From the NCBI GenBank assembly GCA_021108035.1, contig JAIORQ010000024.1, positions 1-64,000 on the forward strand: a stretch of 64,000 nt of DNA, read 5' to 3'. Numbering within the stretch: position 1 is the stretch's first letter; the number at the start of each line of letters is the position of its first letter. The position numbers and the translations under genes were made by a program. Below are positions 2,198-61,247 of this stretch, piece after piece. The stretch comes from Bacteroidales bacterium. Its GTDB lineage: Bacteria; Bacteroidota; Bacteroidia; Bacteroidales; JAADGE01. A model generated the notes under the pieces. The model saw only the letters and a list, made by a program, of their open reading frames with translations. It did not search any database and had not been told where the DNA came from.

Positions 2198-3868
2198 TTA
2201 AAAGCAATCACATCCGGCTGTCTCAAGAAACAATCGAATATCGCCTTTTACATCATAAATCTCTAATGCTTTGCCGTGAAGAGATGAATGCATATGATCT
2301 TTAAATTTTTTAACATTATAATTCGGAATGCAACAATATTCTTTATGAATAATAAATTGATTTTCGGTTCTTACAACCAAATCGTTATATCTGCCCATTA
2401 TTGGATAAACAATTACTGACAACATTCTGAACAAACACTTCATTTTATCGACTTGTGAATGTTTATCAAAATCATCAATAACAGGAAAGTAACAGGTATC
2501 ATCACTTACAGGTGTATTATTCATAATGCTTGTTAATGCTTTGTTTCCGGGAGTCATTACTTGGCAACCGGGCTGATTAAGGAAGAATTTTGCCGATTGA
2601 GATGCTATGCCGGCAATAAATGCAGCTGCTTTTCTGCCGCTTGCCTCGAATATATATTTCATAACCGTAAGGAATTTGGCAATATGATGCCCTGTTGTGA
2701 AATAATCAACACCGTTAGCAGAGGCAACTAATGCTGCTTTCCCTATCGGAATTTTTGTTGAATCTGCATTATAATTTGCCAGATATTGAGCCAATAATCC
2801 GCCTTGACTGGTTGCAATAATATCAACAGGCTGTTTAAATTTAAAATCATTACCCAACATTGTAAACAATGCTGTAATATTTTCCTTTGCACCCTCAGTT
2901 ACCGTAGGATAGTCAAAGGCAATAATTTGTTCGTATGTGCCGCCGTTTATAATTAAACGTTGTTTCAGCCAAGTTTTTTTGCCTTTATACAATGCCTCAA
3001 AAGATTGAGCGGTTGATGCAAAAGCACCGTGAATGAGAAAGAGGGTTTTTAAATTAGGGTCAATATCACTTGCATTTGTTATGTTAAAATCGTTTTCAAA
3101 ATTGTTGAATTTGAGCAAACAATGTTTTTCTTTTTTACCCTTACAATATTGTTTTTGTTTTATAAAATTAAGTAATTCAAATGAATCCTTTATTTCTTTT
3201 CGTGCAAACACCAATGTTTTTAAAAGAAACTGTTTTCCGGACAGGCGTGCCGTCATTGTAAATGTATTCTTTTTATTATCTGTCGGCTCATATTGAAAAC
3301 GCGGCAGGGCTTTAAATTTGTAAGTTAAACGGTCTCTTTTATTTGATTCGTGTTTGTGTGTGGCTTCAGGCATAATGTATTCTACAAGTTTTTTTCCGGT
3401 TTCGGGGTCTTTGTGTTCGTAGAAAACCAAAGCACTTTCCGTATTTTTAAGCATTAATGTGAGCCGCATTTCTGGAATATCTTTTTCTTTAAATTCGCTT
3501 TTGGGAAACTCTATACTGCTGTTATCAAAGGAAATAAATCGCTCAATCATGCGAGCATCCTCATGTAAAGCAAATATATCTTTAATCAGTTTTGCTTCAC
3601 CTTTAACAGCTCCTTTAAAGCGGTCGTTTCCGTATTCTGAAAATTGAATATCGCCTTCCCATTTTCTCATTTTACCGTCGGCAAAACCAAGTGTTCCCCA
3701 GAATCCCGGTACTTGGGCTGTGTATTCTTTTCTAAGCTTGGGGCGAATAATGTTACGCATGAAGCGTTCTTCTTTTATGGTATCTGTGCCTAATAACAGG
3801 AATCGTTTAATTTGTTTATCGCTTTTGTGCTTCAGGAAATTTTTGGAGGTTAGGGTGGTTGGTTTCAT
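2198..3868 (-). CDS. Alpha/beta hydrolase (lipase/esterase-like) with N-terminal extension
   Basis: A 556-aa protein. The C-terminal half is an alpha/beta hydrolase: LFLIHGAFAST (oxyanion region, ~277-286), nucleophile elbow IATSQGG with Ser354 (AxSxG rather than GxSxG, as in some bacterial lipases), a probable acid Asp496 in GRYNDLVV, and a His near 525-531 in KDHMHSSLHG. The first ~270 residues are not recognised and look beta-rich. No signal peptide is seen, so it is inferred to be cytoplasmic. Such domains occur in bacterial conflict and signalling proteins together with peptidases and patatins, which fits the neighbours here (PHP-ATPase 82 bases upstream, patatin beyond). Substrate unknown. 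Confidence 0.7.
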   Translation of the reverse strand: MKPTTLTSKNFLKHKSDKQIKRFLLLGTDTIKEERFMRNIIRPKLRKEYTAQVPGFWGTLGFADGKMRKWEGDIQFSEYGNDRFKGAVKGEAKLIKDIFALHEDARMIERFISFDNSSIEFPKSEFKEKDIPEMRLTLMLKNTESALVFYEHKDPETGKKLVEYIMPEATHKHESNKRDRLTYKFKALPRFQYEPTDNKKNTFTMTARLSGKQFLLKTLVFARKEIKDSFELLNFIKQKQYCKGKKEKHCLLKFNNFENDFNITNASDIDPNLKTLFLIHGAFASTAQSFEALYKGKKTWLKQRLIINGGTYEQIIAFDYPTVTEGAKENITALFTMLGNDFKFKQPVDIIATSQGGLLAQYLANYNADSTKIPIGKAALVASANGVDYFTTGHHIAKFLTVMKYIFEASGRKAAAFIAGIASQSAKFFLNQPGCQVMTPGNKALTSIMNNTPVSDDTCYFPVIDDFDKHSQVDKMKCLFRMLSVIVYPIMGRYNDLVVRTENQFIIHKEYCCIPNYNVKKFKDHMHSSLHGKALEIYDVKGDIRLFLETAGCDCF

Positions 3869-3950: not shown

Positions 3951-6638
3951 CTATTCTACTAATTTATATTTCTTATTTCGTTTTTCAAAGGCTTGTTTAC
4001 CACCTTCTAAAATTTCGCATACTTTATTAATTATTTTTGGATTTTCAAGGCTACCCGAATAATAATTTAAGCTCTCATCAGAATTATTTGCAATTATAAT
4101 TTGTTCAGTATCAGCATTGACAACAAGATTTGCATTATGTGTAACAATTATTACTTGTCTAAATTTCTTTAATTCTTTGAAAATATCTATAAGCTCATTA
4201 ATAATAAATTGATTATCTAAATCATCTTCAGGTTGGTCAAAAATTATTGGTGTTGAAAAAGTATTTGTTGCAAGTTTTAAGCATAAATAAACAGTTCCTC
4301 TTTGTCCAACAGATATTTTGTCAAGTGTCTTCCCTTTATATGTTATTTTAGGTAAAACATATAAATATTCATTTCTTTCTTCTAAGTTATAAAAATAGTT
4401 TTCAAATCTTTTTATATCATAGTAATAACCGCTTTTATCTAATTCTAGTTTCATACGATTTTTAAGAAAATCACAATATGAAATATAATCATTAATTTGA
4501 AAATGATTTTCAACTTCTCCTTTATTGTTCTTCCCTTTCCATCTTCGTCCGTTAATACAGCTACGTATTCCATTATAGAACTGTTTTGTATCAAAAAAAA
4601 TGCTGCCTTTAACTGTAATATCTCTTTCAGAAAGAATTTTCTTTATTAATTGGCGTTGTTTAGGAGACCAATCTATATTTACTTCTAATAAATTATTCCA
4701 TGCAATATCAATGGTATTAACATGATTATTTAATTCATTTAAAATCTTATCAGCAATATTTATTTTTTCATTTTGTAAATCTAAAAAATCTTTTTCTTGC
4801 TCTTCAATTAAAATGAACCTGTTATCAATTGTCTCAATAGCTCGCTTATATTTATCAGCATTAGACAATAAGGTTGTTAAATCACCTTTGTATATTTCAG
4901 CAAACTTATTTTTTATTTCTTCGTTCGTATCTTTATATTTTTTTATAGATAATGTTAGTGTATCTTTTATCTTATCAATTATTTCAAGCTGTAATTTAAA
5001 ATCTATCTTAGGTATTTTTTCGTCTATTTGGTTAAATGTTTTATTTGTTTTTTGCGAAAAATCATTTAGGGTATCAATTATGTTTATTAATTTTTCTTTT
5101 TTAGTTTCAGCTTGCTGAATACTTGTTATGTTTTTTGTAAATTTTTCAAGTTTTTCTTGATTTTCTTTATTGGTTATACTTGATAATAAGTCATTATTTT
5201 TTTTTCGTAATTCTGATAAAGAAGTTTTGTTATTAATTTTAATACCATTCTCATTAGTTTCCTCAAACCACTTTAATTTAGTTTTTATTTTATCTATTAT
5301 GTCATCAATTTCATTTTGAATATTTTTTGAAAAACTAATATTCTCAATATTTAACATTCTTCGTATTTGCATTCCTAACTCTTTTGGTTTTAGTGCAATA
5401 TCTTTCACTTCATTTTGTCGAATGTATAAGAAGTCTAAATTGTGTTTTTCTGAGAAGTTGTACCAAGCTATTTCATTAATTTTATTTGACTTATTGTAGC
5501 TAATGTTAAATTTATCAGAATTCTGATATTCCTTTTCTGAGAAATTAAAACCTTTTGCAATAAAATCAACTAAAATGCTTTTTCCTTCACCCCTCCCTCC
5601 AATAATTGAAACTAAATTTGGATTAAGAGGTAAATTGAATTTTTCAAAAGTTAAATGTTCACTTTCATCTTCAAATATTTTTATATTTTTCTGTATATTG
5701 ACTTCATTAAAAAAAGGTTTTGTAAACTCTAAACCAGGATTCTCTTTTTGTACATTTACACGTTCATAAGGTTCATAAACAATTTGCTTTAATCCATCAA
5801 AAGTGGGGTCAGCTTTAATCCATGTGTATCTGTCATTAACTGGTTTGCATATATCATTAAGACTATGTGCATCTGAGCCATGAACACATGGTTTTAAACT
5901 ACCATAGTCTTTAATTATTTTTTTTGTGATATCAATTCCTCGTCCTGTAAAAAAAATACTATCATTAGGGTTTCCTGAAAAAATAAATTCTGAAAATCTA
6001 TAAATTTCTTGTCTTGTTGCAGCTAAGCTTGAATGTTGTATTCCAGAACTGCCATCTTTATTGCTATTTGAAACAGCCGTAATAGCATTGTCTCTTAACT
6101 TCTTGTTTTTATTAAAGATTTCTCTTAATTGTTTAATCCCTGTTTTAAATTGATTACAACCTTCTTCATAAGCTTTGTCTTTTATAAGGTTTTTGTTTCC
6201 TTTAAAATCTCGCCCTAATTTTATTAAATCAGTTTCTGTGCATTTATATGTATTTTCTGCATATTCAAATTCTATATTGTTAAAAAATAAACTATCAAGT
6301 TCGTCAACAATATCCGGAGAAAAAATAATATGTAAATTTATTGCTTTTTTTTTGTCTGTAACAGGTATAATGCGTAGTTCAACATTTGGCAACAACAAAT
6401 CTATATTTGAAAATTTTCCTTTATTTTTAAATTCAAGCATTTTCGTATAGCCTTTTATCGAAAAATAATCAGTTATCCCCAAAACAGAAATGTCATCTAA
6501 TTTTTCTATTTCATTAATATATTTTTCCCATTTATCTTCAATTGTTACACCTTCAAACTGATTATTAAAAACTGTTGATGGGCAATGTATATGTAAATCC
6601 CATTTTCTCCAAATTGAACCTCTTTTGTAATTATTCAT
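3951..6638 (-). CDS. TrlF-type PHP-domain / SMC-like ATPase
   Basis: An 895-aa protein. Residues ~10-260 carry PHP phosphoesterase motifs: WDLHIHCP (His16, His18), GITDY (~54), LPNVELRI (~83) and CVHGSDAHSL (~251). An ABC/SMC-type ATPase follows: Walker A GGRGEGKS at ~347-354, a long Lys/Glu-rich coiled-coil middle (~420-640), signature SVGQRG (~776), Walker B IIFDQPEDDLD (~799) and THNANL (~833). This domain order matches the TrlF family of AAA-like ATPases, often found in variable, defence-type islands. The PHP domain suggests phosphodiester hydrolysis coupled to DNA- or RNA-end sensing; that activity is inference. No signal peptide. Codon use is as AT-rich as the neighbours. Confidence 0.8.
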   Translation of the reverse strand: MNNYKRGSIWRKWDLHIHCPSTVFNNQFEGVTIEDKWEKYINEIEKLDDISVLGITDYFSIKGYTKMLEFKNKGKFSNIDLLLPNVELRIIPVTDKKKAINLHIIFSPDIVDELDSLFFNNIEFEYAENTYKCTETDLIKLGRDFKGNKNLIKDKAYEEGCNQFKTGIKQLREIFNKNKKLRDNAITAVSNSNKDGSSGIQHSSLAATRQEIYRFSEFIFSGNPNDSIFFTGRGIDITKKIIKDYGSLKPCVHGSDAHSLNDICKPVNDRYTWIKADPTFDGLKQIVYEPYERVNVQKENPGLEFTKPFFNEVNIQKNIKIFEDESEHLTFEKFNLPLNPNLVSIIGGRGEGKSILVDFIAKGFNFSEKEYQNSDKFNISYNKSNKINEIAWYNFSEKHNLDFLYIRQNEVKDIALKPKELGMQIRRMLNIENISFSKNIQNEIDDIIDKIKTKLKWFEETNENGIKINNKTSLSELRKKNNDLLSSITNKENQEKLEKFTKNITSIQQAETKKEKLINIIDTLNDFSQKTNKTFNQIDEKIPKIDFKLQLEIIDKIKDTLTLSIKKYKDTNEEIKNKFAEIYKGDLTTLLSNADKYKRAIETIDNRFILIEEQEKDFLDLQNEKINIADKILNELNNHVNTIDIAWNNLLEVNIDWSPKQRQLIKKILSERDITVKGSIFFDTKQFYNGIRSCINGRRWKGKNNKGEVENHFQINDYISYCDFLKNRMKLELDKSGYYYDIKRFENYFYNLEERNEYLYVLPKITYKGKTLDKISVGQRGTVYLCLKLATNTFSTPIIFDQPEDDLDNQFIINELIDIFKELKKFRQVIIVTHNANLVVNADTEQIIIANNSDESLNYYSGSLENPKIINKVCEILEGGKQAFEKRNKKYKLVE

Positions 6639-7045: not shown

Positions 7046-8251
7046 TTATATTTTTTCCCAGTCCTCAAAAGCATCCTTAAAAAACTTATGTCCTACGGAG
7101 TAGTCTAATTTATTGTCTCTGCTTATTGAGCCTTTTACGGGTTGATTTAAGATATTGCCGTTTTTCCATTCCGTAAAGCATTGTTTTACGGTTTCAATAT
7201 CTTTTTGCTTGCTTATATCCATATCCATTGCATAGAGCTTGTAAATGAATTCTTTTATCTTTTCATTATCGTCATGAAAACCGGGTTGAACGTGTATCAT
7301 GGGTGATAATCGGATAAATTGTTTGATGTTTTCTTTATGCTCATGCAAATTATCGGAAAAACGCATAACATAACTGACATAATTTGCCCAATCCGGCGGC
7401 TCGTATAATATGGTTTTAGCAAGGTTCATAACAGTTTTACCAAAAAACTTTATACCCAAACAGGGTTTAGATTTTCGATGTTTCAACACATTGATATAGA
7501 GCTTATAGAAATAACTTTTATCGTGTTGTGACATTAATTTATTGCCTGTTCCGAGTGATACAACTTGTATGCTTTCTTTGGGTACACCGGTATAAAACGC
7601 CTCAACCATTGCAGCAGTAAGCGGATTATTAAAACCGCCCAAAGCTCCGTCCCACAGATAATAAAATTGCTCTGTTCCCTTTGCTTTGAACTTTGCCGGA
7701 AAATCGAAATAATTTACCGGTGCATTGCTTGATGCATGCACGGCTTTTATAAGGTTTATTTTATCATATGTTTTTCCCGGATAACCGTATGAACGAAAAA
7801 ACTTTGCCTTATTATTGAGACAATCAAATGTTGCAACAATAATTTTAAGGCTCGTTTTGCCGATATATTCGGGCAATTCATCCATATTTCGGCTTTTGAT
7901 AAGTTTAAAAATTTCATTAAAAGCTTCATACTTTTTAGTTGTAGAATATTTCGGCCCGAAACCAAACCATTTTGTTATTCCGGTCGGGAAATATCTTTTG
8001 CTGAACGGATTGGGATAAAATATTTTCTTTCTTAATTCTTCTTTATCGAACAGTTCAATGGTTTCATCCAATGTCCAATTGCATGCAAGTGCCGCCAAAA
8101 CAATACTTCCTCCTGAATTGGCAACTACCATATCATATTCTTTCAGGATTTGATGTCCGGTTTTATCAGGATAACGTTCTTTGAGGGACAGTATTTGAAT
8201 TAATGCCCAGCTTCCTCCTCCGTCGAGGGATAGTATTTTGTATTTTTTCAT
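7046..8251 (-). CDS. Patatin-like phospholipase
   Basis: A 401-aa protein with the patatin Ser-Asp dyad. LSLDGGGSWA (residues 8-17) is the oxyanion-hole glycine loop, VANSGGS holds the nucleophile Ser46 (AxSxG instead of GxSxG), and WDGALGG holds Asp201 of the DGA motif. Family members hydrolyse acyl chains from membrane phospholipids. There is no signal peptide, so it would act from the cytoplasm on the inner membrane, as the patatin effectors of several anti-phage systems do. It lies 278 bases downstream of the 803-aa envelope protein and upstream of the PHP-ATPase, same strand. Family and active site are well supported; the role is inference. Confidence 0.85.
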   Translation of the reverse strand: MKKYKILSLDGGGSWALIQILSLKERYPDKTGHQILKEYDMVVANSGGSIVLAALACNWTLDETIELFDKEELRKKIFYPNPFSKRYFPTGITKWFGFGPKYSTTKKYEAFNEIFKLIKSRNMDELPEYIGKTSLKIIVATFDCLNNKAKFFRSYGYPGKTYDKINLIKAVHASSNAPVNYFDFPAKFKAKGTEQFYYLWDGALGGFNNPLTAAMVEAFYTGVPKESIQVVSLGTGNKLMSQHDKSYFYKLYINVLKHRKSKPCLGIKFFGKTVMNLAKTILYEPPDWANYVSYVMRFSDNLHEHKENIKQFIRLSPMIHVQPGFHDDNEKIKEFIYKLYAMDMDISKQKDIETVKQCFTEWKNGNILNQPVKGSISRDNKLDYSVGHKFFKDAFEDWEKI

Positions 8252-8529: not shown

Positions 8530-10941
8530 TTAAAATCTCTTTCTTCTCCCCGGATGAATATTAATTATCGGAATATCAATTGTTAATGATATATTGTACA
8601 TCCATTGAGGATTGCTGATAACATTTCCTTCATTGTTAATTTCGGTTAATCCCGGACCGTATTGAAAACCGAAGGAAAGTGCGAGAGGGATATTGCCTCC
8701 GAAACCGTAAATAACAGATGCTCCGGGAGAAAATATATTACCAAGCTGAATTTTATTACTGTATTCTACATTTTTTGTAATAGTAGTTGTTGTATCTGTT
8801 CCGGTAATAACATAACTTGTATCATTTTCTGCTTTTAAACGATAATCAACTATTGCTCCTATGTCGATTAAACTTACAAATAAACTTACCGACCCTCCTT
8901 TTCTGAAAGAAAAAGGAGTATAAGCTACACCGACAGGAGCATATACTTTCCAAAGGTAATTTTCTTTGAAATCTAAATTTGTTTGATTTTTTAAAGCATA
9001 TCCTAAATATGAATTTATTGCAACATTATGCGGTTGATATTTTTTTAAACTTGAACTGCCGGCAGGTAAGGCTATCGATTTAATGATTTGCGATACTGCT
9101 TCGGAACTATCAGCTTGGGCAATTCTTGCTATAAACGATCCATAATAAAATGTCTTTTGAGCATATTTATTTAAGTTTTTAATTGTTTTTTTGTGATTAG
9201 ATGATTTTTTTGTAAAACCATATTCATTTTTTAATACGTTTTTAGATTTAATACTTTTTATAATTGGCCACGAGTCTTGATGAGATTTATGTTCTTTTAA
9301 AATTTTTTTATAATCTGATTTTATATCATCAGATTTATTAAGGTTTTTATCATTCAATATTTCGATAACAGTCTCAAATATATTGGATGCATTTAACATA
9401 GCTTCCGCATAGTTTTTATCATAAATATTGTCAACTGAATTTGCTAATTCTTTACTAATGGTTCTATATTTTTCAATTTTATCAAGATTAATGGTATCAA
9501 TATATTCCATGATATCGAATCCGAAGTTTATTGTATTAAGAGAAGCAAACATGTATTGTCTGTAATCATCCGATTTTAATTTAATGTTATGTTTCTTTTT
9601 ATATCTTATACTATCTTGTACATCATCAAGCTCCTCTGTAACAGAGTTGAATGTTTCAATTAAGTCACGTATTCCCATTATGTTTTTAGCCTGTTTTGAA
9701 AGAATTTCGTGAAATGTAATATCATTTTTCTTGTGTATTAATATACTTCCCTTTTTTTGTTTTGCATTGGAGACAATAATTGAATCTTGTTTAATTTCTA
9801 CGTATCCAGTATCTGTCAAAATTATACTATTTTTACATAAAATATCTCCTTCTTGAAGCACTTTATCTTCCGATAAATAAACAGAGTCTTTGTAAGGATA
9901 AAATGTAATTGCATTCATTAATGATTTTTGGTATAATAATCCTAAATAAATACGAAAAGCTATAGTGTCTTCTGTAAGTATTTTTAAATGTTGATTACTT
10001 ACCCAAGCCATAGAATTTTCGCTCCAAGTTTTTAATGTGTCACGAATTATTCTATTTGATGTTTCGGTTACTCTTATTAAGTGAGAATCATCCTGATATA
10101 TAATATCTGTTGAGTCTTTATTATTCTTTAAAATTATTGAATCGTTTTTAAATCTTAATGATTGGCTTATTAAATCAGTAGTTTGAAATAATGCAAGCAA
10201 ATTTTTAGAGTCTTCGTTGGTAGATTTTTTTAAGGCATCAATTTTTGTAATTTTATGAATAATATCAAACGAATGTTCTTTATTTTGAACATCTTCAATA
10301 ATTTTGAGAAAAATTAATACTTCGGGCAATTCTTCTACAACAAATTTATATTTGGGTAATTCAAGCAAGTCGTCTATTCTAAAAGGCAAGTTTTGAATAT
10401 CTTCCAAAAATTTATTTCGCAAAGTAGATATCCAAATAGTGTATTCGTGAGCAAGCATATTTTCAATAAAATCGGAAGTCTTTGGAAATAATGCTTCTGA
10501 TTCGGGATAATTCGTTAGAAAGTTCTTAAATCGTTGAAAGAATACTATAGTTAATTCTTCTTTTGCACTTGAAATCATAAATTGGGCTAAACCGTCTGCG
10601 ATGGTTGTTACATTTAGGCCGGAAATGCTGCCAGTTAAAATATCTTTAATTTCATTAGCATTACCCCCCCTAACTCCTTCACTTTTACCACTTATTTCAA
10701 TGAATAGATTTTGATCTTCTCCATCTACATAATTAAATGCATTGACAATTTCATTTTTCGTATTATTAATTTTTGGTTGATAATATTTATCCAAAATTGA
10801 AAATACTGTTTCTGAACTATATTTTAATTGACCTCCCTGATCTGTTTCATTTGCAAGTTTGAATGCATCATAATATGCAATTTGACCGAAATTAATAAAA
10901 GAATATGATAGAAGTAAACTAAAAATAACAATTTTTTTCAT
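8530..10941 (-). CDS. Exported protein of unknown function, helical body and barrel-like C-terminus
   Basis: An 803-aa protein I do not recognise. Residues 1-20 are a signal peptide (KKIVIFSLLLSYSFINFGQ). The middle, to about residue 640, is mostly helical, charged and Asn/Lys/Ile-rich. The last ~150 residues alternate short amphipathic strands (YAPVGVAYTPFSF, GGSVSLFVSLIDIGAIVDY, QLGNIFSPGASVIYGFGG, ALSFGFQYGPGL, YNISLTIDIPI) and end in an aromatic-rich strand. This is the look of an outer-membrane beta-domain. Its start codon overlaps the subtilase stop by 4 bases, so the two are probably translationally coupled. It is inferred to be the envelope partner of the subtilase and membrane protein. 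Confidence 0.6.
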   Translation of the reverse strand: MKKIVIFSLLLSYSFINFGQIAYYDAFKLANETDQGGQLKYSSETVFSILDKYYQPKINNTKNEIVNAFNYVDGEDQNLFIEISGKSEGVRGGNANEIKDILTGSISGLNVTTIADGLAQFMISSAKEELTIVFFQRFKNFLTNYPESEALFPKTSDFIENMLAHEYTIWISTLRNKFLEDIQNLPFRIDDLLELPKYKFVVEELPEVLIFLKIIEDVQNKEHSFDIIHKITKIDALKKSTNEDSKNLLALFQTTDLISQSLRFKNDSIILKNNKDSTDIIYQDDSHLIRVTETSNRIIRDTLKTWSENSMAWVSNQHLKILTEDTIAFRIYLGLLYQKSLMNAITFYPYKDSVYLSEDKVLQEGDILCKNSIILTDTGYVEIKQDSIIVSNAKQKKGSILIHKKNDITFHEILSKQAKNIMGIRDLIETFNSVTEELDDVQDSIRYKKKHNIKLKSDDYRQYMFASLNTINFGFDIMEYIDTINLDKIEKYRTISKELANSVDNIYDKNYAEAMLNASNIFETVIEILNDKNLNKSDDIKSDYKKILKEHKSHQDSWPIIKSIKSKNVLKNEYGFTKKSSNHKKTIKNLNKYAQKTFYYGSFIARIAQADSSEAVSQIIKSIALPAGSSSLKKYQPHNVAINSYLGYALKNQTNLDFKENYLWKVYAPVGVAYTPFSFRKGGSVSLFVSLIDIGAIVDYRLKAENDTSYVITGTDTTTTITKNVEYSNKIQLGNIFSPGASVIYGFGGNIPLALSFGFQYGPGLTEINNEGNVISNPQWMYNISLTIDIPIINIHPGRRKRF

Positions 10942-12011
10942 GGTTTATAGATTTTAATTATTGATTTATTGACTGAATCATTATATTTTGTTGATATAGA
11001 ATTGATTTTACTTAATAAATCTGCATATGGTAATTTGCCAAATGTAGAAATTGACAATGCTAATATACCGCTAAACAAAGAGGTAGAGAAGGAACTCCCA
11101 TTTTTATAAGTGTAATATTTATTTTTCCTGATTGAACATGAATATATATCTGATGCAGGTATTATATAATCTAAACTTTTCGGAAATTTATTGTTTTTCA
11201 TATTAAAATCACGATTTACAGAGCCAACAGCAATGCAGAATGGACTTTCTGCCGGATATAAAATCTCATTTCTCAAAAGGCCTTCATTGTTTCCTGCTGC
11301 TGCTATAATATATATTCCTTTTTCATGTATTTTTTTTAATTTATCCTCAATTTTTTGATAATCATAATATGTGATGGATAAACTTAAATTGATAATACTA
11401 AAATCAATCTCTGATTCCAATATAAAGTCAAATGCATTGTCTAACCAAACCCAATATGAGTTAGCAGCATCATCCAAAACTTTTAAATTAAAAATATTAC
11501 ATTTAGGGGCTACTCCAACAACTCCTATACTATTAGAACTTCTTGCACCTATGAGACCGGCTACATTGGTACCATGTCCATTTTTATCTAAATAACCTGA
11601 ATTATCATCTGTGAAATTTTTCGACTCATATTCAGTTCTAAAAAACATTCCTTCAAAATCAGGATGATTTTCATATATCCCTGAATCTAATACAGCGATA
11701 TTAATATCCTTTCCTCCCGAAGCTTTCCAATTTTCAGGAATATCTTTGAAAACTGAATTATAATTTATAAATTTATGTATATATTTTTCAACTTCAACCC
11801 CTTCAAACCCCCCACTCCAAAGATAATCACCGTTAAGATCTTCATACCATTTAGTATTGGGATTATTATCCTCACCCGGCTTTCCCTGAATTTCTTTATC
11901 TTTAACAGTAACTTCAAATCCTTTATAAATTATCCCTTTTAAATTATCTTTATTTTTTTCAGGTTTTTTTGATCTTATATATACATCATTTATTGTTTTT
12001 AATGTTTTCAT
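10938..12011 (-). CDS. Subtilisin-family (S8) serine protease with N-terminal SH3-like domain
   Basis: A 357-aa protein with a complete S8 triad: Asp109 in IAVLDSGI, His146 in NGHGTNVAGLIGA, Ser307 in NGSSFST, plus the oxyanion Asn241 in AAAGNNEG. Residues ~5-70 look like a bacterial SH3 (SH3b) domain ending WYEDLNGDYLWSGGF. There is no signal peptide and no inhibitor-type prodomain, unlike secreted subtilases, so it is predicted to be made active or allosterically held in the cytoplasm. It overlaps the upstream membrane-protein gene by 1 base and the downstream 803-aa gene by 4. Processing of a partner in the same locus is a plausible role, but inferred. Confidence 0.85.
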   Translation of the reverse strand: MKTLKTINDVYIRSKKPEKNKDNLKGIIYKGFEVTVKDKEIQGKPGEDNNPNTKWYEDLNGDYLWSGGFEGVEVEKYIHKFINYNSVFKDIPENWKASGGKDINIAVLDSGIYENHPDFEGMFFRTEYESKNFTDDNSGYLDKNGHGTNVAGLIGARSSNSIGVVGVAPKCNIFNLKVLDDAANSYWVWLDNAFDFILESEIDFSIINLSLSITYYDYQKIEDKLKKIHEKGIYIIAAAGNNEGLLRNEILYPAESPFCIAVGSVNRDFNMKNNKFPKSLDYIIPASDIYSCSIRKNKYYTYKNGSSFSTSLFSGILALSISTFGKLPYADLLSKINSISTKYNDSVNKSIIKIYKP

Positions 12012-13009
12012 TATCCTACAGGTTGTTTTTTGTTTATTTTATTCTCATCTTTTTTAATTGCCAAATAAGTTACTGAACTTATACCCATTAATACTATCAA
12101 GTTTTCATCAAGATGCGGTATTTTATTATTATGCCAAACTTCAAACATAAAATATGAAGCAACAGCAATTGTAAATACAACATTTTGAAACCTGTGAATA
12201 CTTAATCCTTTAGAGTCTGAAAGTATATTCATAAAAAAATTCTCTGATTTGTTCATTTCTTGATGACGTTCAGGGATTTTTGGGTTGTTGCTGTCATTTC
12301 TGTCAATCATTATCCCTCCTATTGTTGTTCCGGCACTAATTCCGAGAAGTGCTAAAACTTGAGGTGTAATTTCTATTTGTACTCCGGTATTACACCAAAT
12401 TACAAAATAAGCAAACAAAACAATAATTGTCCAAAATGCCATTTGTGTTCTTGATAAACTGTAAGGAGGATTCTCTTTATTGTTAACATTATCTCTTAAA
12501 ATACTGCGTCTGTTTTTGTTAATAATAAATATTATAAAAAACATTAAAATAATAATTGTAATTCCTGACCACCATTCTCGCATTAATTTCTTTTCGTCAA
12601 ATACAAGTTTAAAATTTTTATGAATCAGCTCTTTATTCTTGTTGCTTGTACCGATAAATAAATCAACAGAAACTTGTGATCTGTTTTTAGGGTTTATATA
12701 ATTTGATACAGTATCTTCATCTTCGTCAATTTTATTTAACTTGAATTTATAAAGGTGAAAGTTTTTATATACTTTTTCTAATTTGTCAACTTTACTGTTA
12801 TCAATGAATAAAAAAAGCTCGTTTATCTCTGCTTTGGTTGGATAAAGTATCATTAATTCTTCTCCGATTTCTGCTTTCTTAACCTTTGAAATTTTCACTG
12901 ACAGTACCTCTTTGTCAGAAGATTTTTTCTTTACTTGTCCTGTTGCTGCTGTACTGTAAAACAGGAATGGAATCAGTAATATATAAAACAGTTTTTTAAA
13001 TCTTTTCAT
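12011..13009 (-). CDS. Membrane protein with periplasmic domain and duplicated TM module
   Basis: A 332-aa protein. An N-terminal signal or anchor (~5-25, ending TAATGQ) is followed by a ~130-aa charged, probably periplasmic domain and then five hydrophobic segments (~160-178, 197-215, 220-241, 276-294, 303-322). The last four form two similar halves. Each begins SLSRTQMAFWT or GLSIHRFQNVVFT and ends LLGISAGTTIGG or LMGISSVTYLA, so the module arose by internal duplication. I recall related halves in uncharacterised bacterial membrane proteins but know no function. The gene overlaps the subtilase start by 1 base. Inner-membrane location is inferred. Confidence 0.6.
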   Translation of the reverse strand: MKRFKKLFYILLIPFLFYSTAATGQVKKKSSDKEVLSVKISKVKKAEIGEELMILYPTKAEINELFLFIDNSKVDKLEKVYKNFHLYKFKLNKIDEDEDTVSNYINPKNRSQVSVDLFIGTSNKNKELIHKNFKLVFDEKKLMREWWSGITIIILMFFIIFIINKNRRSILRDNVNNKENPPYSLSRTQMAFWTIIVLFAYFVIWCNTGVQIEITPQVLALLGISAGTTIGGIMIDRNDSNNPKIPERHQEMNKSENFFMNILSDSKGLSIHRFQNVVFTIAVASYFMFEVWHNNKIPHLDENLIVLMGISSVTYLAIKKDENKINKKQPVG

Positions 13010-13121: not shown

Positions 13122-13715
13122 TCAATATAATTCCCCCATCACCCGCAAAATCGCCTCCACATGCCAATTAATAATTCTTTCTCTGCCTTCTTTGGTTAGG
13201 AGGATGTCTTTGCATTCGTCTTTGTTATCCATAAAAAAATTTTCGGTGAGGATGGCGGGCATTTTTGTTTTCAGCAAAACTGTATATCTGTCCTCTTTAT
13301 CAAGGTCGCCGTCGGAATAGTCGGTTCTTAATTTTTTGTTCGGGTATTCTTTTTTGTATTCTTCACCGAATATGGTAGCTATTTTATCGCTTTTGGTTTC
13401 TCCGGACGATGTGAAAATCTCTGATCCGTGTCCGCCGCCGGCATTGGCATGTATGCTCAAATAAAAGCATTTCTTTGCATTGTATTTGTTTGCCCTGTTT
13501 ACGCGTGTTTGAAGTGAAACATCTCTGTATTCGGGTGCAATGTTTACATAAGGAATTTTAAGTGCAGTCAGTTTCTCAATAATTCCGTTTACAATTGCTC
13601 GGTTAAATTCTCCTTCGTAAATATGCGTTCCGTCACTCCATTTCTTTTGTTTCCCTTTGGTTTGGTACTTATTGTCTATAAGTCCGCCGTGTCCGTTGTC
13701 TAATAATACTGTCAT
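13122..13715 (-). CDS. N-acetylmuramoyl-L-alanine amidase (Amidase_3)
   Basis: A 197-aa single-domain enzyme that cleaves the amide between muramic acid and the peptide stem of peptidoglycan. Visible motifs are LLDNGHGG (zinc His9), HIYEGEFNRAI (zinc Glu, ~34-36), YLSIHANAGGG (zinc His, ~90) and ILTENFFMDN (catalytic Glu). No signal peptide and no cell-wall-binding repeat is present, unlike housekeeping AmiC-type enzymes, so it needs another route to the periplasm or acts only on lysis. It is the first gene of the minus-strand island, with a TAnnTTTG box about 30 bases upstream. It could be a phage-type lysin, but no phage genes are near. Confidence 0.85.
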   Translation of the reverse strand: MTVLLDNGHGGLIDNKYQTKGKQKKWSDGTHIYEGEFNRAIVNGIIEKLTALKIPYVNIAPEYRDVSLQTRVNRANKYNAKKCFYLSIHANAGGGHGSEIFTSSGETKSDKIATIFGEEYKKEYPNKKLRTDYSDGDLDKEDRYTVLLKTKMPAILTENFFMDNKDECKDILLTKEGRERIINWHVEAILRVMGELY

Positions 13716-17617: not shown

Positions 17618-19375
17618 CTACTCTATTGTATATGTCCAAAATAGGTGGATGGTTTGTCCTGATGAGGCGGCGCCATTCTTTCCGCCACCGAAATGTATAT
17701 AACTCGGCCCTGCTCCGGTAAATAACGGAGCTGTGGCATTAGCATACAAATTGTCGGTTGTTTCCACTGTCCCGTTTTGGGTTGCCCATGAGTTACCGCT
17801 GGACGCATACATGCAGACATAGTCGTTCGCAATGCTTGCTGTATAGTAGCCGAGATCAGCCTTTCCTAATGCCCACAACTTGAAAGTCTGTCCGGCCTCA
17901 ATATAGAGACTGTAGTAGAAGGTTACAGAGTTATTCGGGACAGCAGCTTCTTTTGTGACGGTATTTCTTAATCCGCCCGGTGCCTGAATCTCGCCTGCTA
18001 CCCTTACATCACCTGCAACTTCCAGCTTCTCGGAAGGACTTGTTGTACCGATACCTACATTTCCTGAAGTATTAATTATTCCCCCGCCTCCGGAAGTCCA
18101 ATCGAAAGAATTTCCTCTTAAATGGATAGCATCGCCTGAAGAAGCTCCCAAATAAGTGTTTGCTGAGTAAAGGTAAGTATTGGCACTCGAGGACTGAACA
18201 TAAAACTGATCAGGGGTGGCAATTCTGTTAGCTGCATCCCTGTAAAAATATGCATCAGTGCTGCCGATATATGTATAGCCCGTAACCAAACTGTTTCCGG
18301 CTACATGCAGGCCTTGAGAGGGCGATGATGTCCCGATACCGACATTACCGCCATTGAGCCACGAGTTTCCGGATGTATGAAGGCGAACATTCTCTGTTCC
18401 AGCCTCATTTGCCATATGAAAAACGCCGTGATTTGTCCCCCTAACACTTTCATCCCAGTTAAAGTAATATTGACCGGTGGTGGCATCAATATGGTAGTTG
18501 CCGTTTGACGGCCTTATGAATACAAACTGTCCTGCAGTATAAGAATTGAGTTTGACAGAGCCTACATTTCCTGCACTATTCTGTCCTAATTCCAAAGAAA
18601 CAGATCCGGATAGCGATGTCCATGTCCAGTTACTTACGGATGTATTTGCAACTTGCAACTTAGCCCCCGGATTCGTTGTCCCGATACCGACATTACCGTT
18701 TTCTTGCACTCTAAATAATTCATTGGCATTGCTGCCCTTTATGGCCTGATTGTTAACAATGGCAAAGTATTTATTAGTATTATTATCATTGGCATCGATA
18801 TGAAAAATCAACTCTTCGGGAGCCATGACAGACAAACCGTAATTATTATCTTCAAAGACTCCTAAATCACCTCGATTTCTAAATCGTAATTCATAGTTAG
18901 CGTCTAAATTAATGCTGCCTCCCGCAACATGAAGTTTTTGTGAGGGCCCGGTTGTCCCGATGCCGACATAGCCGCTATTTGTAATATGCAACCTCGTTGT
19001 ATTATTGGTTATAAAACCGAGTGCATAATTATCAGTATTTCCGAGGGTACGATTTTCGCCGCCGGCTTCTCCTCCGTTTGCAAAATCACCTTTGTTCATT
19101 CTACTCCATGCCGAACCGTTGTAATAGTAAAACCCCGATGTATTATCGGTTTGATAAATCATTAATCCGGTTGTCGGAGAACCGGGCGAGCCGATAATAT
19201 TTCGCTGTGCTTCCGTCATACGGGGTATCAAAATTCCTTTACTTGTGGATTCTACTTCCAACATTGCATCATCGGCAGGAACTCCTCCGCTTGCGTTTAT
19301 CATTACTCCTTGCGAAAATCCCGAAATACTCAACATTAAAAATAATGCTGAGAAAAAAATTGTTCTTAAATTCAT
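17618..19375 (-). CDS. Secreted protein with tail-fibre-like GIGTT repeats
   Basis: A 585-aa protein with a signal peptide (1-21, LFLMLSISGFSQ). Residues ~25-100 resemble the head region common in secreted Bacteroidota proteins (LEVESTSKGILIPRMTEAQR, GLMIYQTDNTSGFYYYNGSAW). Four copies of a (N/Y)VGIGT(T/S)xPxxxLxVA motif follow at about 136, 229, 347 and 441, separated by Gly/Ser/Asn-rich beta segments as in phage tail-fibre shafts. No C-terminal S74 chaperone domain and no PorSS sorting domain is seen. The DNA is visibly more GC-rich than its neighbours, suggesting transfer or strong repeat constraint. Probably a cell-surface fibre; function unknown. Confidence 0.65.
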   Translation of the reverse strand: MNLRTIFFSALFLMLSISGFSQGVMINASGGVPADDAMLEVESTSKGILIPRMTEAQRNIIGSPGSPTTGLMIYQTDNTSGFYYYNGSAWSRMNKGDFANGGEAGGENRTLGNTDNYALGFITNNTTRLHITNSGYVGIGTTGPSQKLHVAGGSINLDANYELRFRNRGDLGVFEDNNYGLSVMAPEELIFHIDANDNNTNKYFAIVNNQAIKGSNANELFRVQENGNVGIGTTNPGAKLQVANTSVSNWTWTSLSGSVSLELGQNSAGNVGSVKLNSYTAGQFVFIRPSNGNYHIDATTGQYYFNWDESVRGTNHGVFHMANEAGTENVRLHTSGNSWLNGGNVGIGTSSPSQGLHVAGNSLVTGYTYIGSTDAYFYRDAANRIATPDQFYVQSSSANTYLYSANTYLGASSGDAIHLRGNSFDWTSGGGGIINTSGNVGIGTTSPSEKLEVAGDVRVAGEIQAPGGLRNTVTKEAAVPNNSVTFYYSLYIEAGQTFKLWALGKADLGYYTASIANDYVCMYASSGNSWATQNGTVETTDNLYANATAPLFTGAGPSYIHFGGGKNGAASSGQTIHLFWTYTIE

Positions 19376-59688: not shown

Positions 59689-60384
59689 TTAAAAACCAAA
59701 TAAATAACCTACTGAAAGACCAAAAAATATGTTTTTACTACTCGCGTCTCCTGAAATAGGATCACCGTCTTCATTATCAGGATAAGTATCAGGTCCACTA
59801 TATAAATCACTGCTTGTATTAATAAAGTTAGCTAAACCCATTCCAACATTTGCTTCAACAAAAACGCCTGAAAAAGAAGTACCAACACCTAAATTTAAAC
59901 CAAAATCAACTTTATTAAACATATCATTTTCAGTTCCGTCTTCAAAATCAGCAAAATTATCTTCTTCATCAAATACTGTTGTTTCGTCTCCAACTGTCAT
60001 TTCTCCGTTAGTTTTACAGCTGAGAGCATAGCCGAAATAAGGTCCGACAAATACATACGCAGGTCCGAAACCGGCTTTTGCACTTACTCCGACATTAAGA
60101 TAGTCTACATTAGTTTTCATGTCAATAGTCATATCATCTTCATCAGAATAAAAATCTACACCCAGTTGAGTGTAACCAATATCAAGTCTTAAATTCAATA
60201 AATCAGATAAGCCGTATTCTCCGACTAAACCTGCATTAAAACCGTTAGCCAACTTATAACCATCCGGTACCCAATAATTTGTTAAATAACCGGACATGCC
60301 ATAACCTACTTTTACACCAATTTTTTGAGCGCTCATAGTGAATACAAATAATACTGCAACACTTAATAAAAATAATTTCTTCAT
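59689..60384 (-). CDS. Outer-membrane beta-barrel-like protein, tandem copy A
   Basis: A 231-aa protein from the ATG at 60384 (MKKLFLLSVAVLFVFTMSAQ signal peptide); a longer frame to 60468 would start upstream of the -7 box at 60413. The mature part has regular amphipathic strands (GVKVGYGMSGYL, LRLDIGYTQLGVDF, VGVSAKAGFGPAYVFVGPYF, GLNLGVGTSFSGVFVEANVG) and ends with FFGLSVGYLFGF. The aromatic C-terminus is typical of 8-stranded porin-like or PorT-type barrels. It is a recent tandem duplicate of the gene at 60552: residues ~94-231 are identical. Confidence 0.8.
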   Translation of the reverse strand: MKKLFLLSVAVLFVFTMSAQKIGVKVGYGMSGYLTNYWVPDGYKLANGFNAGLVGEYGLSDLLNLRLDIGYTQLGVDFYSDEDDMTIDMKTNVDYLNVGVSAKAGFGPAYVFVGPYFGYALSCKTNGEMTVGDETTVFDEEDNFADFEDGTENDMFNKVDFGLNLGVGTSFSGVFVEANVGMGLANFINTSSDLYSGPDTYPDNEDGDPISGDASSKNIFFGLSVGYLFGF

Positions 60385-60412
60385 AATTGTATATTTTAAA
60401 TTAAACTTTCGA

Positions 60413-60420
60413 CAAAGATA
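60413..60420 (-). promoter_or_regulatory. Candidate -7 box (TATCTTTG) of copy A
   Basis: Minus-strand TATCTTTG, 28 bases before the ATG at 60384, with TTTG (60445-60442) 21 bases further up. The equivalent box of copy B is at 61277. Confidence 0.5.
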
Positions 60421-60504
60421 AAAAATAAAATAAAAAAACATCAAAATTTGAAAATATGTTATAATCAATTAGAGTATAGAATAGGTTCATTCCGCTAATA
60501 TAAA

Positions 60505-60531
60505 AAACCTCCGAGAAATACTCGGAGGTTT
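60505..60531 (-). terminator. Terminator of outer-membrane protein gene B
   Basis: Stem AAACCTCCGAG / CTCGGAGGTTT with T-run on the minus strand; one base differs from the terminator of copy A. Confidence 0.9.
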
Positions 60532-60551
60532 AAATTAAATATAAATTCGTT

Positions 60552-61247
60552 TTAAAAACCGAATAAATAACCTACTGAAAGACCAAAAAATATGTTTTTA
60601 CTACTTGCGTCTCCTGAAATAGGATCACCGTCTTCATTATCAGGATAAGTATCAGGTCCACTATATAAATCACTGCTTGTATTAATAAAGTTAGCTAAAC
60701 CCATTCCAACATTTGCTTCAACAAAAACGCCTGAAAAAGAAGTACCAACACCTAAATTTAAACCAAAATCAACTTTATTAAACATATCATTTTCAGTTCC
60801 GTCTTCAAAATCAGCAAAATTATCTTCTTCATCAAATACTGTTGTTTCGTCTCCAACTGTCATTTCTCCGTTAGTTTTACAGCTGAGAGCATAGCCGAAA
60901 TAAGGTCCGACAAATACATACGCAGGTCCGAAACCGGCTTTTGCACTTACTCCGACATTAAGATAATCAATATTAGTTTTCATTTCAACAGTCATATCAT
61001 CCTCTTCGTCATAATAATCCGTACCTAATTGATTGTAACCAATATCAAGTCTTAAACTCAATAAATCAGATAAGCCGTATTCTCCGACTAAGCCTGCATT
61101 AAAGCCGTTAGCCATCTTATAACCATCCGGCATCCAATAATTTGTTAAACAATCGGACATGCCATAACCTACTTTTACACCAATTTTTTGAGCATTCATA
61201 GTGAATGCAAATAAAACTGCAATACTTAATAAAAATAATTTTTTCAT
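60552..61247 (-). CDS. Outer-membrane beta-barrel-like protein, tandem copy B
   Basis: A 231-aa protein with signal peptide MKKLFLLSIAVLFAFTMNAQ and the same barrel-like strand pattern and FGF end as copy A. About 17 differences from copy A fall within residues 1-93 (e.g. TDYYDEEDDMTVEMKTNIDY here, VDFYSDEDDMTIDMKTNVDY in A). The rest, including the acidic loop FDEEDNFADFEDGTE and the Asp-rich loop YPDNEDGDPISGDASS, is identical. The acidic loops suggest cation contact, which is inference. Own promoter box and terminator, so each copy is a separate unit. Confidence 0.8.
   Translation of the reverse strand: MKKLFLLSIAVLFAFTMNAQKIGVKVGYGMSDCLTNYWMPDGYKMANGFNAGLVGEYGLSDLLSLRLDIGYNQLGTDYYDEEDDMTVEMKTNIDYLNVGVSAKAGFGPAYVFVGPYFGYALSCKTNGEMTVGDETTVFDEEDNFADFEDGTENDMFNKVDFGLNLGVGTSFSGVFVEANVGMGLANFINTSSDLYSGPDTYPDNEDGDPISGDASSKNIFFGLSVGYLFGF

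Follow-up and report, generated by a model that had tools for sequence, protein, structure and literature searches.

A putative membrane-tethered protease module of Bacteroidota, and a glycine tail that goes with an SH3-like module in the product of the next gene

We analyzed a stretch of 64,000 nucleotides from a Bacteroidales bacterium (NCBI GenBank assembly GCA_021108035.1, contig JAIORQ010000024.1, positions 1 to 64,000 of the forward strand), referred to in its full length as the window, and focused on a cassette of three overlapping genes that encode, in order of transcription: a membrane protein (MEM), a subtilase of peptidase family S8 that starts with a bacterial-SH3-like module, and a protein with a barrel-like C-terminal domain (the barrel protein). 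The main finding is that the end of the membrane protein, be it MEM or a member of the more common family 3TM, tracks the presence of the SH3-like module in the product of the next gene. We propose, at a probability of roughly 45%, that the three genes constitute a membrane-tethered protease module, whose docked protease would be released or activated on an envelope event, ending in lysis or abortive infection; docking, cleavage, phage response and lysis are all predictions from the sequence. If true, this provides a sequence-readable rule that links glycine tail and SH3-like module: from it one could predict which enzyme is held by which membrane protein, and it offers a route to further such systems in unannotated genomes. 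The system would be accessory and possibly defensive, and MEM, 3TM and the barrel protein had no convincing match in the curated libraries that were scanned.

3TM is a family with three hydrophobic segments and is the usual membrane partner upstream of S8 genes; its last residue was scored against the class of the next gene over 395 genomes. Membrane proteins encoded upstream of a gene with the SH3-like module ended in glycine in 34 of 37 cases, 23 of them as -VG (the exceptions end in AVGQ, NREA and NPKA), vs none of 47 3TM proteins that lack this neighbour (Fisher 2e-20). The tail is for the most part -VG or -KG. After single-linkage clustering at 50% identity, the sole correction for relatedness in these statistics, the numbers were 26/29 vs 0/41 (Fisher 3e-16). 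The 47 negatives comprise: 13 proteins encoded directly upstream of a barrel gene, 2 that precede an SH3-less S8 gene (loci L098 and L067, with the tail missing in both), 9 from PLSDB records (including 8 of other phyla), L076, and 22 of a fresh sample. Excluded were L066 and L071 (the same proteins as L087 and L091), L077 (a 75-residue fragment), L174 (cut), and L195 and L160, which the profile missed (the 3TM of L160 ends in SVAD). The tail is absent from 3TM proteins that are fused to a trypsin-like protease. Both MEM proteins that precede an SH3-S8 gene, that of the window and that of L124, end in PVG, and none of nine MEM relatives elsewhere (L013-L020, L134) ends in glycine. Among the other open reading frames (ORFs) of more than 150 amino acids in the 78 loci described below, a final G was found in 24 of 803 and a final VG in 4. 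The tail rule was fixed as a prediction before the fresh 3TM sample, and on its negative side 0/22 ended in G, with 4 of these lacking a same-strand next ORF in the stretch and 2 having it at a distance of over 200 bases. The tail and position -1 counts for the 78 loci were made with the first 3TM profile, because an iterated one also drew in SH3 and trypsin-like proteins (e.g. L145, L134); the ORFs of the fresh sample came from the iterated profile, applied to loci fetched with profile A6, and the SH3-trypsin row of L169 was dropped for that reason. The gene ends of L169 equal those of L145 and were not recounted.

The tail is kept at gene gaps of -4 to +12 (larger overlaps, of -8 and -38, stem from start choice) and is written with all of GTA/GTG/GTT/GTC and GGA/GGC/GGG/GGT. 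Because codons and gene spacing vary, it looks conserved as a peptide signal. That it would be a by-product of translation signals at an overlapping gene start, and no docking tag, is highly improbable: overlaps of 1 base or of 4 bases are indeed common among the pairs, as are GTAGGATAATG-like strings, but the tail persists over this range of gaps and codons, a final G is absent from all 16 other pairs with a 1-base overlap in these loci, and 3TM genes at -4 to +2 from SH3-less genes are without it. MEM shows no recognizable kinship with 3TM (as a distant 3TM, with an hhalign probability of 0.9 percent at E 0.058, it was considered and not accepted), and the -PVG end of MEM therefore looks convergent with the 3TM tails.

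The tail more likely reads the SH3-like module than the protease, because the module, with which most S8 proteins begin (about 10/49 are without), also heads GH25-type (4 loci), GH46-type (2) and trypsin-like (1) proteins in this slot; one SH3-GH25 and one SH3-GH46 protein were confirmed by Pfam, the others by phmmer. Pfam SH3_3 was matched by 1/31 members of the module family (2.6e-8) and SH3_5 by 1/31 (0.0013), and the module of the window itself matches nothing, so the bacterial-SH3-like label is a family-level assignment. Bacterial SH3 domains of the type related to this module usually bind peptidoglycan. Lysostaphin is one example: its solved SH3b domain has a groove, between beta1 and beta2, that accepts a glycine peptide (PMC6461655), and by analogy a glycine-ended ligand is plausible for the present module. 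The proposed ligand differs in that lysostaphin SH3b binds wall cross-bridges, whereas the window module would bind the C-terminal glycine of its partner inside the cell.

We suggest, with moderate confidence, that through the tail the SH3-like module is anchored at the inner membrane, on its cytosolic side. Its free C-terminal glycine would sit in the module, and the docking would hold the protease at the cytosolic membrane face, as a non-covalent counterpart of the 3TM-trypsin fusion. The exported partner and the membrane protein may report a disturbance of the envelope (phage entry, damage, attack), upon which the docked protease would be freed or switched on, and would cut cell proteins or activate adjacent signal-less patatins and wall hydrolases, with lysis or abortive infection as the outcome. 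Our confidence is low for this second part, i.e. envelope sensing by the exported and membrane proteins and the subsequent triggering of lytic neighbours or cell death by the protease. A conflict or self-lysis module is favoured because signal-less patatins and wall hydrolases are found near some of the loci.

Within the window, the overlaps of 1 and 4 bases by which the initial annotation had joined the three genes are confirmed by the ORF coordinates, and both were encountered again: the 4-base overlap between S8 and barrel gene in 22/51 relatives and the 1-base overlap between membrane and S8 gene in 10/23. The annotation had further assigned the three products to three compartments; a membrane protein, a signal-less subtilase and an exported barrel-like protein are indeed recovered, and for the last of these the outer membrane is a candidate site (fold matches of Z ~5). 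The lack of an export signal on the protease extends to the relatives, with 0/56 S8-profile matches being signal-peptide-like (such starts, like the hydrophobic segments, were called by a crude hydropathy test in a script of our own). A longer, signal-bearing form of the window subtilase, which the annotation had named as one of two findings that would refute its reading, is excluded because the frame is open just 9 codons further upstream (366 vs 357 amino acids), i.e. at most 9 extra codons. Three observations support the suggestion that the protease acts at its membrane partner from the cytosolic side: the gene order, 13 fusions of a trypsin-like and a membrane protein, and the tail that tracks the SH3-like module. 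The trans-envelope signalling or gating device that the annotation inferred goes beyond them and is a conjecture.

The AlphaFold2 model of the window subtilase (mean pLDDT 91) has subtilisins as top Foldseek matches (best E 4e-20), and by sequence it is closest to PDB 7xr8 (E 1.3e-28). The Asp/His/Ser triad lies in a subtilisin fold, as in peptidase family S8, its residues are the sole invariant columns in an alignment of 44 sequences, and it is intact in 49/49 S8 proteins at position -1. Narrower families were not matched: the type VII mycosin model of NCBIfam gave 121.2 bits (cut-off 278.75), its model of the anti-phage S8 peptidase IetS gave 18.1 bits (cut-off 900), and the PADLOC models of IetS, which have no cut-off, reached no more than 34.2 bits (E 1.8e-9), with a match that spans the catalytic domain in part. 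Intracellular subtilisins carry a short propeptide. Those of PDB 7xr8 and 2xrm are like the window subtilase in the catalytic domain and in the missing signal peptide, and differ from it in that the N-terminal SH3-like module is found where the propeptide sits.

The barrel protein had no match above the cut-off in Pfam (best E 0.043) and none in NCBIfam, PADLOC and PHROGs. AlphaFold2, run on an alignment of 69 sequences (the window protein and 68 of 78 relatives; the ten left out were mostly near-duplicates or from similar loci), predicts a helical body and a C-terminal beta domain (mean pLDDT 77), and Foldseek found no PDB match to this model at E <=0.001. The VIA-align rows for about residues 629-800 include designed and natural small barrels (NspA, OprF, OmpX, PagL) at Z ~4-5, below the trust level of the tool. 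The beta domain has some 8 strands in the model and several of the weak rows are small outer-membrane barrels; as a description of the predicted fold, the name 'barrel-like' stands. A likeness of the helical body to ClyA or SmhB was dismissed as within noise (Z 4.2-4.9).

A start that resembles a signal peptide was found in 70/78 barrel proteins. Such export would also fit a secretion or delivery system, in which the tail loads SH3-tagged hydrolases on an inner-membrane export platform, the barrel is the outer exit and the cargo hits competitors, and the occurrence of one module on S8, trypsin-like, GH25 and GH46 proteins would be in keeping with a cargo tag. We nevertheless consider this unlikely: no constant ATPase or known secretion gene was seen at the loci (among 25 of the 92 neighbour families listed), a contractile-sheath family (PF04984) occurs in 5/20 barrel genomes (4 above the cut-off) and adjoins the barrel gene in genome G544 only, and the protease can be a covalent part of the membrane protein. 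A link to contractile injection was therefore rejected as a rule, and the window's genome had no match to Phage_sheath_1.

A profile built from seven barrel-protein relatives retrieved 78 loci in GTDB genomes, which were oriented and whose ORFs were called mechanically; by label, 76 are from Bacteroidota groups, one from an unassigned bacterium (L085) and one from a metagenome-assembled genome called Williamsia (L125, label unverified). Linkage of the cassette genes elsewhere, whose absence the initial annotation had named as refuting, is clearly present: the same-strand gene directly upstream of the barrel gene (position -1) encodes a protease in 74/78 loci, namely 49 S8 proteins, 2 S8 fragments at contig ends (L136, L141; found by the iterated profile only), 21 trypsin-like proteins and 2 metalloprotease-like proteins with an HExxH motif (L140, L143; the former with M10/M12-type Pfam matches). 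The remaining four are L112, L114 and L128, in which the neighbour lies on the opposite strand, and L118. The GDSG motif alone was a weak test for trypsin-like proteins (of 7 scanned, L084 and L149 were over the Pfam cut-off, L087 and L123 below it, and L105, L134 and L157 unmatched), and therefore a profile was built from L084, L145 and L149 (Pfam Trypsin or Trypsin_2 above the cut-off). At E 1e-4 it matches exactly 21 ORFs across the 78 loci, all at -1, 20 of which have GDSG and one (L145) GYSG. The S8 profile matched at -1 in 50/78 loci (L145 by its SH3-like module alone), at -2 in 6 and, of the 853 ORFs that lie beyond positions -3 to 0 in these loci, none; the six matches at -2 were considered as second S8 proteins and proved to be SH3-GH25 or SH3-GH46 proteins. 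The distance matrices of S8 and barrel proteins correlate modestly (Spearman 0.40; 0/2000 permutations as high).

The tight linkage of protease and barrel protein would also suit envelope quality control, in which a membrane-bound regulatory protease answers the folding of the barrel protein and the neighbours are incidental, and by the seeds used lytic neighbours were found in 20/78 loci only. This is unlikely in our view, because the patchy distribution and the exchange of the protease class suit an accessory system better than a housekeeping one.

The same three-gene order elsewhere, for which the initial annotation had proposed a search, was retrieved in part: the linkage is kept, but the exact order MEM-S8-barrel is found in one other locus only (L124, Parachryseolinea silvisoli; MEM 40% identical over 164 residues), as the membrane gene is mostly 3TM and the protease class can change. 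In the 78 loci 3TM is found at -2 in 24, at -3 in 6 and at -1 in 13, the latter being trypsin-like proteins fused to a 3TM part (12 by GDSG, plus L125). These fusions, found in relatives and absent from the window, put the protease on the membrane protein itself; their Pfam support is uneven (L084 over the Trypsin_2 cut-off, L123 and L087 below it, L157 unmatched). MEM has a signal-peptide-like start, an N-terminal domain of about 110 residues and some five hydrophobic segments (residues 145-163, 192-210 and 217-235, with weaker ones near 272-291 and 302-319); it had no match in PADLOC and an unconvincing best one in PHROGs (E 0.0012 over 24 residues). 3TM was matched in 13/20 barrel genomes and not in that of the window, and MEM may therefore take the place of 3TM there. 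In L134 a MEM relative lies five genes before the barrel gene. Candidate matches that were put aside are: that of L140 to the three-TM family PF20303 (below cut-off, E 0.0095), a MEM match in G015 (E 1e-4, short contig) to a protein of WD40-like appearance, and a weak MEM match in G035 with internal stops.

A broader proposal, which we put forward tentatively, is that MEM and 3TM serve as exchangeable platforms in the inner membrane, and that their C-termini specify the hydrolase made by the next gene, with -VG/-KG for proteases and lysozymes that carry the SH3-like module and other ends for other hydrolases such as amidohydrolases, patatins or amidases; they would then represent an undescribed modular class of membrane-docked effector systems in several phyla.

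The genes around the cassette were inspected in the same 78 loci, where 105 of 174 operon neighbours were scanned (most of the other 69 are distant genes in long runs or come from near-duplicate loci). The commonest Pfam families were: Patatin (6), PG_binding_1 (5), CHAP (4), Peptidase_C1 (3), VanY (3) and PG_binding_3 (3), and GH25, GH46 and CHAP enzymes are present in the loci of some relatives. With single-protein seeds, 22 patatins or wall hydrolases were found in 20/78 loci, all on the cassette strand and none signal-peptide-like. Endolysin-type enzymes that lack a signal peptide and carry SH3 or peptidoglycan-binding domains lie close to some of the genes, and in the window a signal-less Amidase_3 adjoins MEM. 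These enzymes may also point to a host-borne, phage-like lysis cassette, as may the usual peptidoglycan binding by SH3 modules of this type: a holin-like membrane protein would pass SH3-bearing hydrolases and the amidase to the periplasm, and the barrel protein would open the outer layer. Endolysin-like genes have been described near some bacterial gasdermins as well (PMC9612521). The lysis-cassette explanation is fairly unlikely, as it leaves unexplained both why the last residue of the membrane protein tracks the SH3-like module and why the protease is fused to a membrane protein, and no holin family of Pfam or PHROGs matched MEM.

Several observations weigh against the tethered protease module. 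On the positive side of the fresh sample the tail rule held in 1/2 cases only (L185 ends in VG, L173 in KA). The cytosolic location of the 3TM C-terminus is deduced from three helices and the charges after helix 1 (26/31), and the charge rule is weak at helix 2 (13/31) and helix 3 (16/31, 5 ties). The fold matches of the barrel fall below reliability (Z ~5), and S8 and barrel distances agree modestly only, with the same nearest neighbour in 7/43, so that partners may have been exchanged between loci. Finally, the 105 scanned operon neighbours make up a mixed list of 92 families, and 58/78 loci are without patatin or wall hydrolase by the seeds used.

A literature search on the gene set and on likely parent papers, with subscription journals largely outside its coverage, found no description of the system. 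The closest published idea found is System 3 of Kaur et al. 2020, in which peptidases are coupled to a NucA-like endonuclease in a proposed proteolytic cascade (PMC7159879). System 3 is alike in its trypsin-like peptidases, several of them fused to membrane segments, some S8 peptidases, and papain-like and lysozyme-like wall enzymes; it differs in its NucA endonuclease core and its mostly alphaproteobacterial distribution, and the section on it describes no barrel protein or glycine tail. No NucA-type endonuclease was found among the 10 window proteins scanned with Pfam. Kinship is possible, because the 3TM locus of a Hymenobacter plasmid (L159) lies close to genes for a DNA/RNA non-specific endonuclease, for amidases and for an S8 peptidase. 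Gasdermins are made without a signal peptide. Bacterial gasdermin operons (PMC9612521) also combine a protease with a membrane-active partner and sometimes have lysozyme or amidase genes nearby; the window partner differs in being an exported, barrel-ended protein that matches no family above the Pfam cut-off and whose fold matches are all weak. Nuclease-protease pairs and canu loci (PMC12799240) share a trypsin-like protease or caspase with a constant partner in antiviral loci, but there the partner is a gated nuclease and not an exported envelope protein. The cassette may be a protease-centred conflict module of a known sort, with a possibly new docking principle.

Table 1. Coordinates of the cassette, its domains and neighbouring genes in the window.
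Feature	Position	Strand	Remark
MEM, membrane protein, 332 amino acids	12011..13009	-	ORF; no Pfam or NCBIfam match above cut-off
Tail -Pro-Val-Gly at the MEM C-terminus, putative docking tag for the SH3-like module encoded next	12014..12022	-	
MEM/subtilase 1-base overlap (TAATG)	12011..12011	-	
S8 subtilase without signal peptide, 357 amino acids	10938..12011	-	Pfam Peptidase_S8 E 2.5e-35
N-terminal bacterial-SH3-like module, residues 1-68	11808..12011	-	family alignment; all-beta in model
Subtilisin catalytic domain, residues 99-347; Asp109, His146, Ser307	10971..11717	-	
Subtilase/barrel protein 4-base overlap	10938..10941	-	
Barrel protein, 803 amino acids	8530..10941	-	signal peptide-like start, mostly helical body, C-terminal beta domain
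Conserved helical region of barrel protein, residues 115-261	10159..10599	-	
C-terminal barrel-like domain (predicted), residues 629-800	8542..9057	-	
N-acetylmuramoyl-L-alanine amidase (Amidase_3), no signal-peptide-like start	13122..13715	-	112 bases upstream of MEM
Patatin-like phospholipase, no signal-peptide-like start	7046..8251	-	next after barrel protein, 278 bases on
TrlF-family AAA-like ATPase	3951-6638	cassette strand	NCBIfam 555 bits vs cut-off 350
DUF7379 protein	2198-3868	cassette strand	
Amidohydro_2 protein	112-1434	cassette strand	

The window cassette is situated in a single-strand gene run rich in hydrolases (Table 1). The barrel protein was found in 7/392 other genomes of the order and in 12/394 others of the phylum sample, and in 0/20 family relatives. 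Carriage of its gene by phages or plasmids was rejected: no relative was found in viral contigs (one two-pattern scan), in PLSDB plasmids (with the window protein as query) or in INPHARED phages (with that of L090). A scan of viral contigs for MEM gave none either. Distant barrel proteins were seen about 5 kb from a contractile-sheath gene (L079 7523-16290, in G544) and before a gene for a caspase-domain protein with, by eye, a signal-peptide-like start (L074 4239-8276, in G588).

3TM was found in 13 PLSDB records from Pseudomonadota, Cyanobacteriota, Actinomycetota and one Bacteroidota, of which 9 annotated ones were examined for context (that of Nonomuraea is unannotated and 3 were left out). 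Wall hydrolases, wall-binding proteins or a patatin lie within 8 kb in 5 of them, a haloperoxidase gene lies just before or two small genes before 3TM in 3, and 1 has neither. In the alphaproteobacterial plasmids L163, L164 and L165 the 3TM gene follows that of a vanadium-dependent haloperoxidase, directly or two small genes on, in a conserved gene run. In L158 (at 9272, Caballeronia) and L159 (at 9194, Hymenobacter) 3TM precedes amidases and ends in QGGVI and EGGVA, respectively, possibly a second tail code. The next gene in 9 of the 22 fresh 3TM loci (L183, L186, L189-L193, L196, L197) is amidohydrolase-like by its start, which has a CHTHIF-type motif; the window has an Amidohydro_2 gene at 112-1434. 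Elsewhere in the window, two tandem OMP-like genes that are almost identical are found at 59689-61247, and the region 17618-19375 encodes a protein with repeated GNVGIGTT-type motifs, which we take to be as in phage tail-fibre-like proteins.

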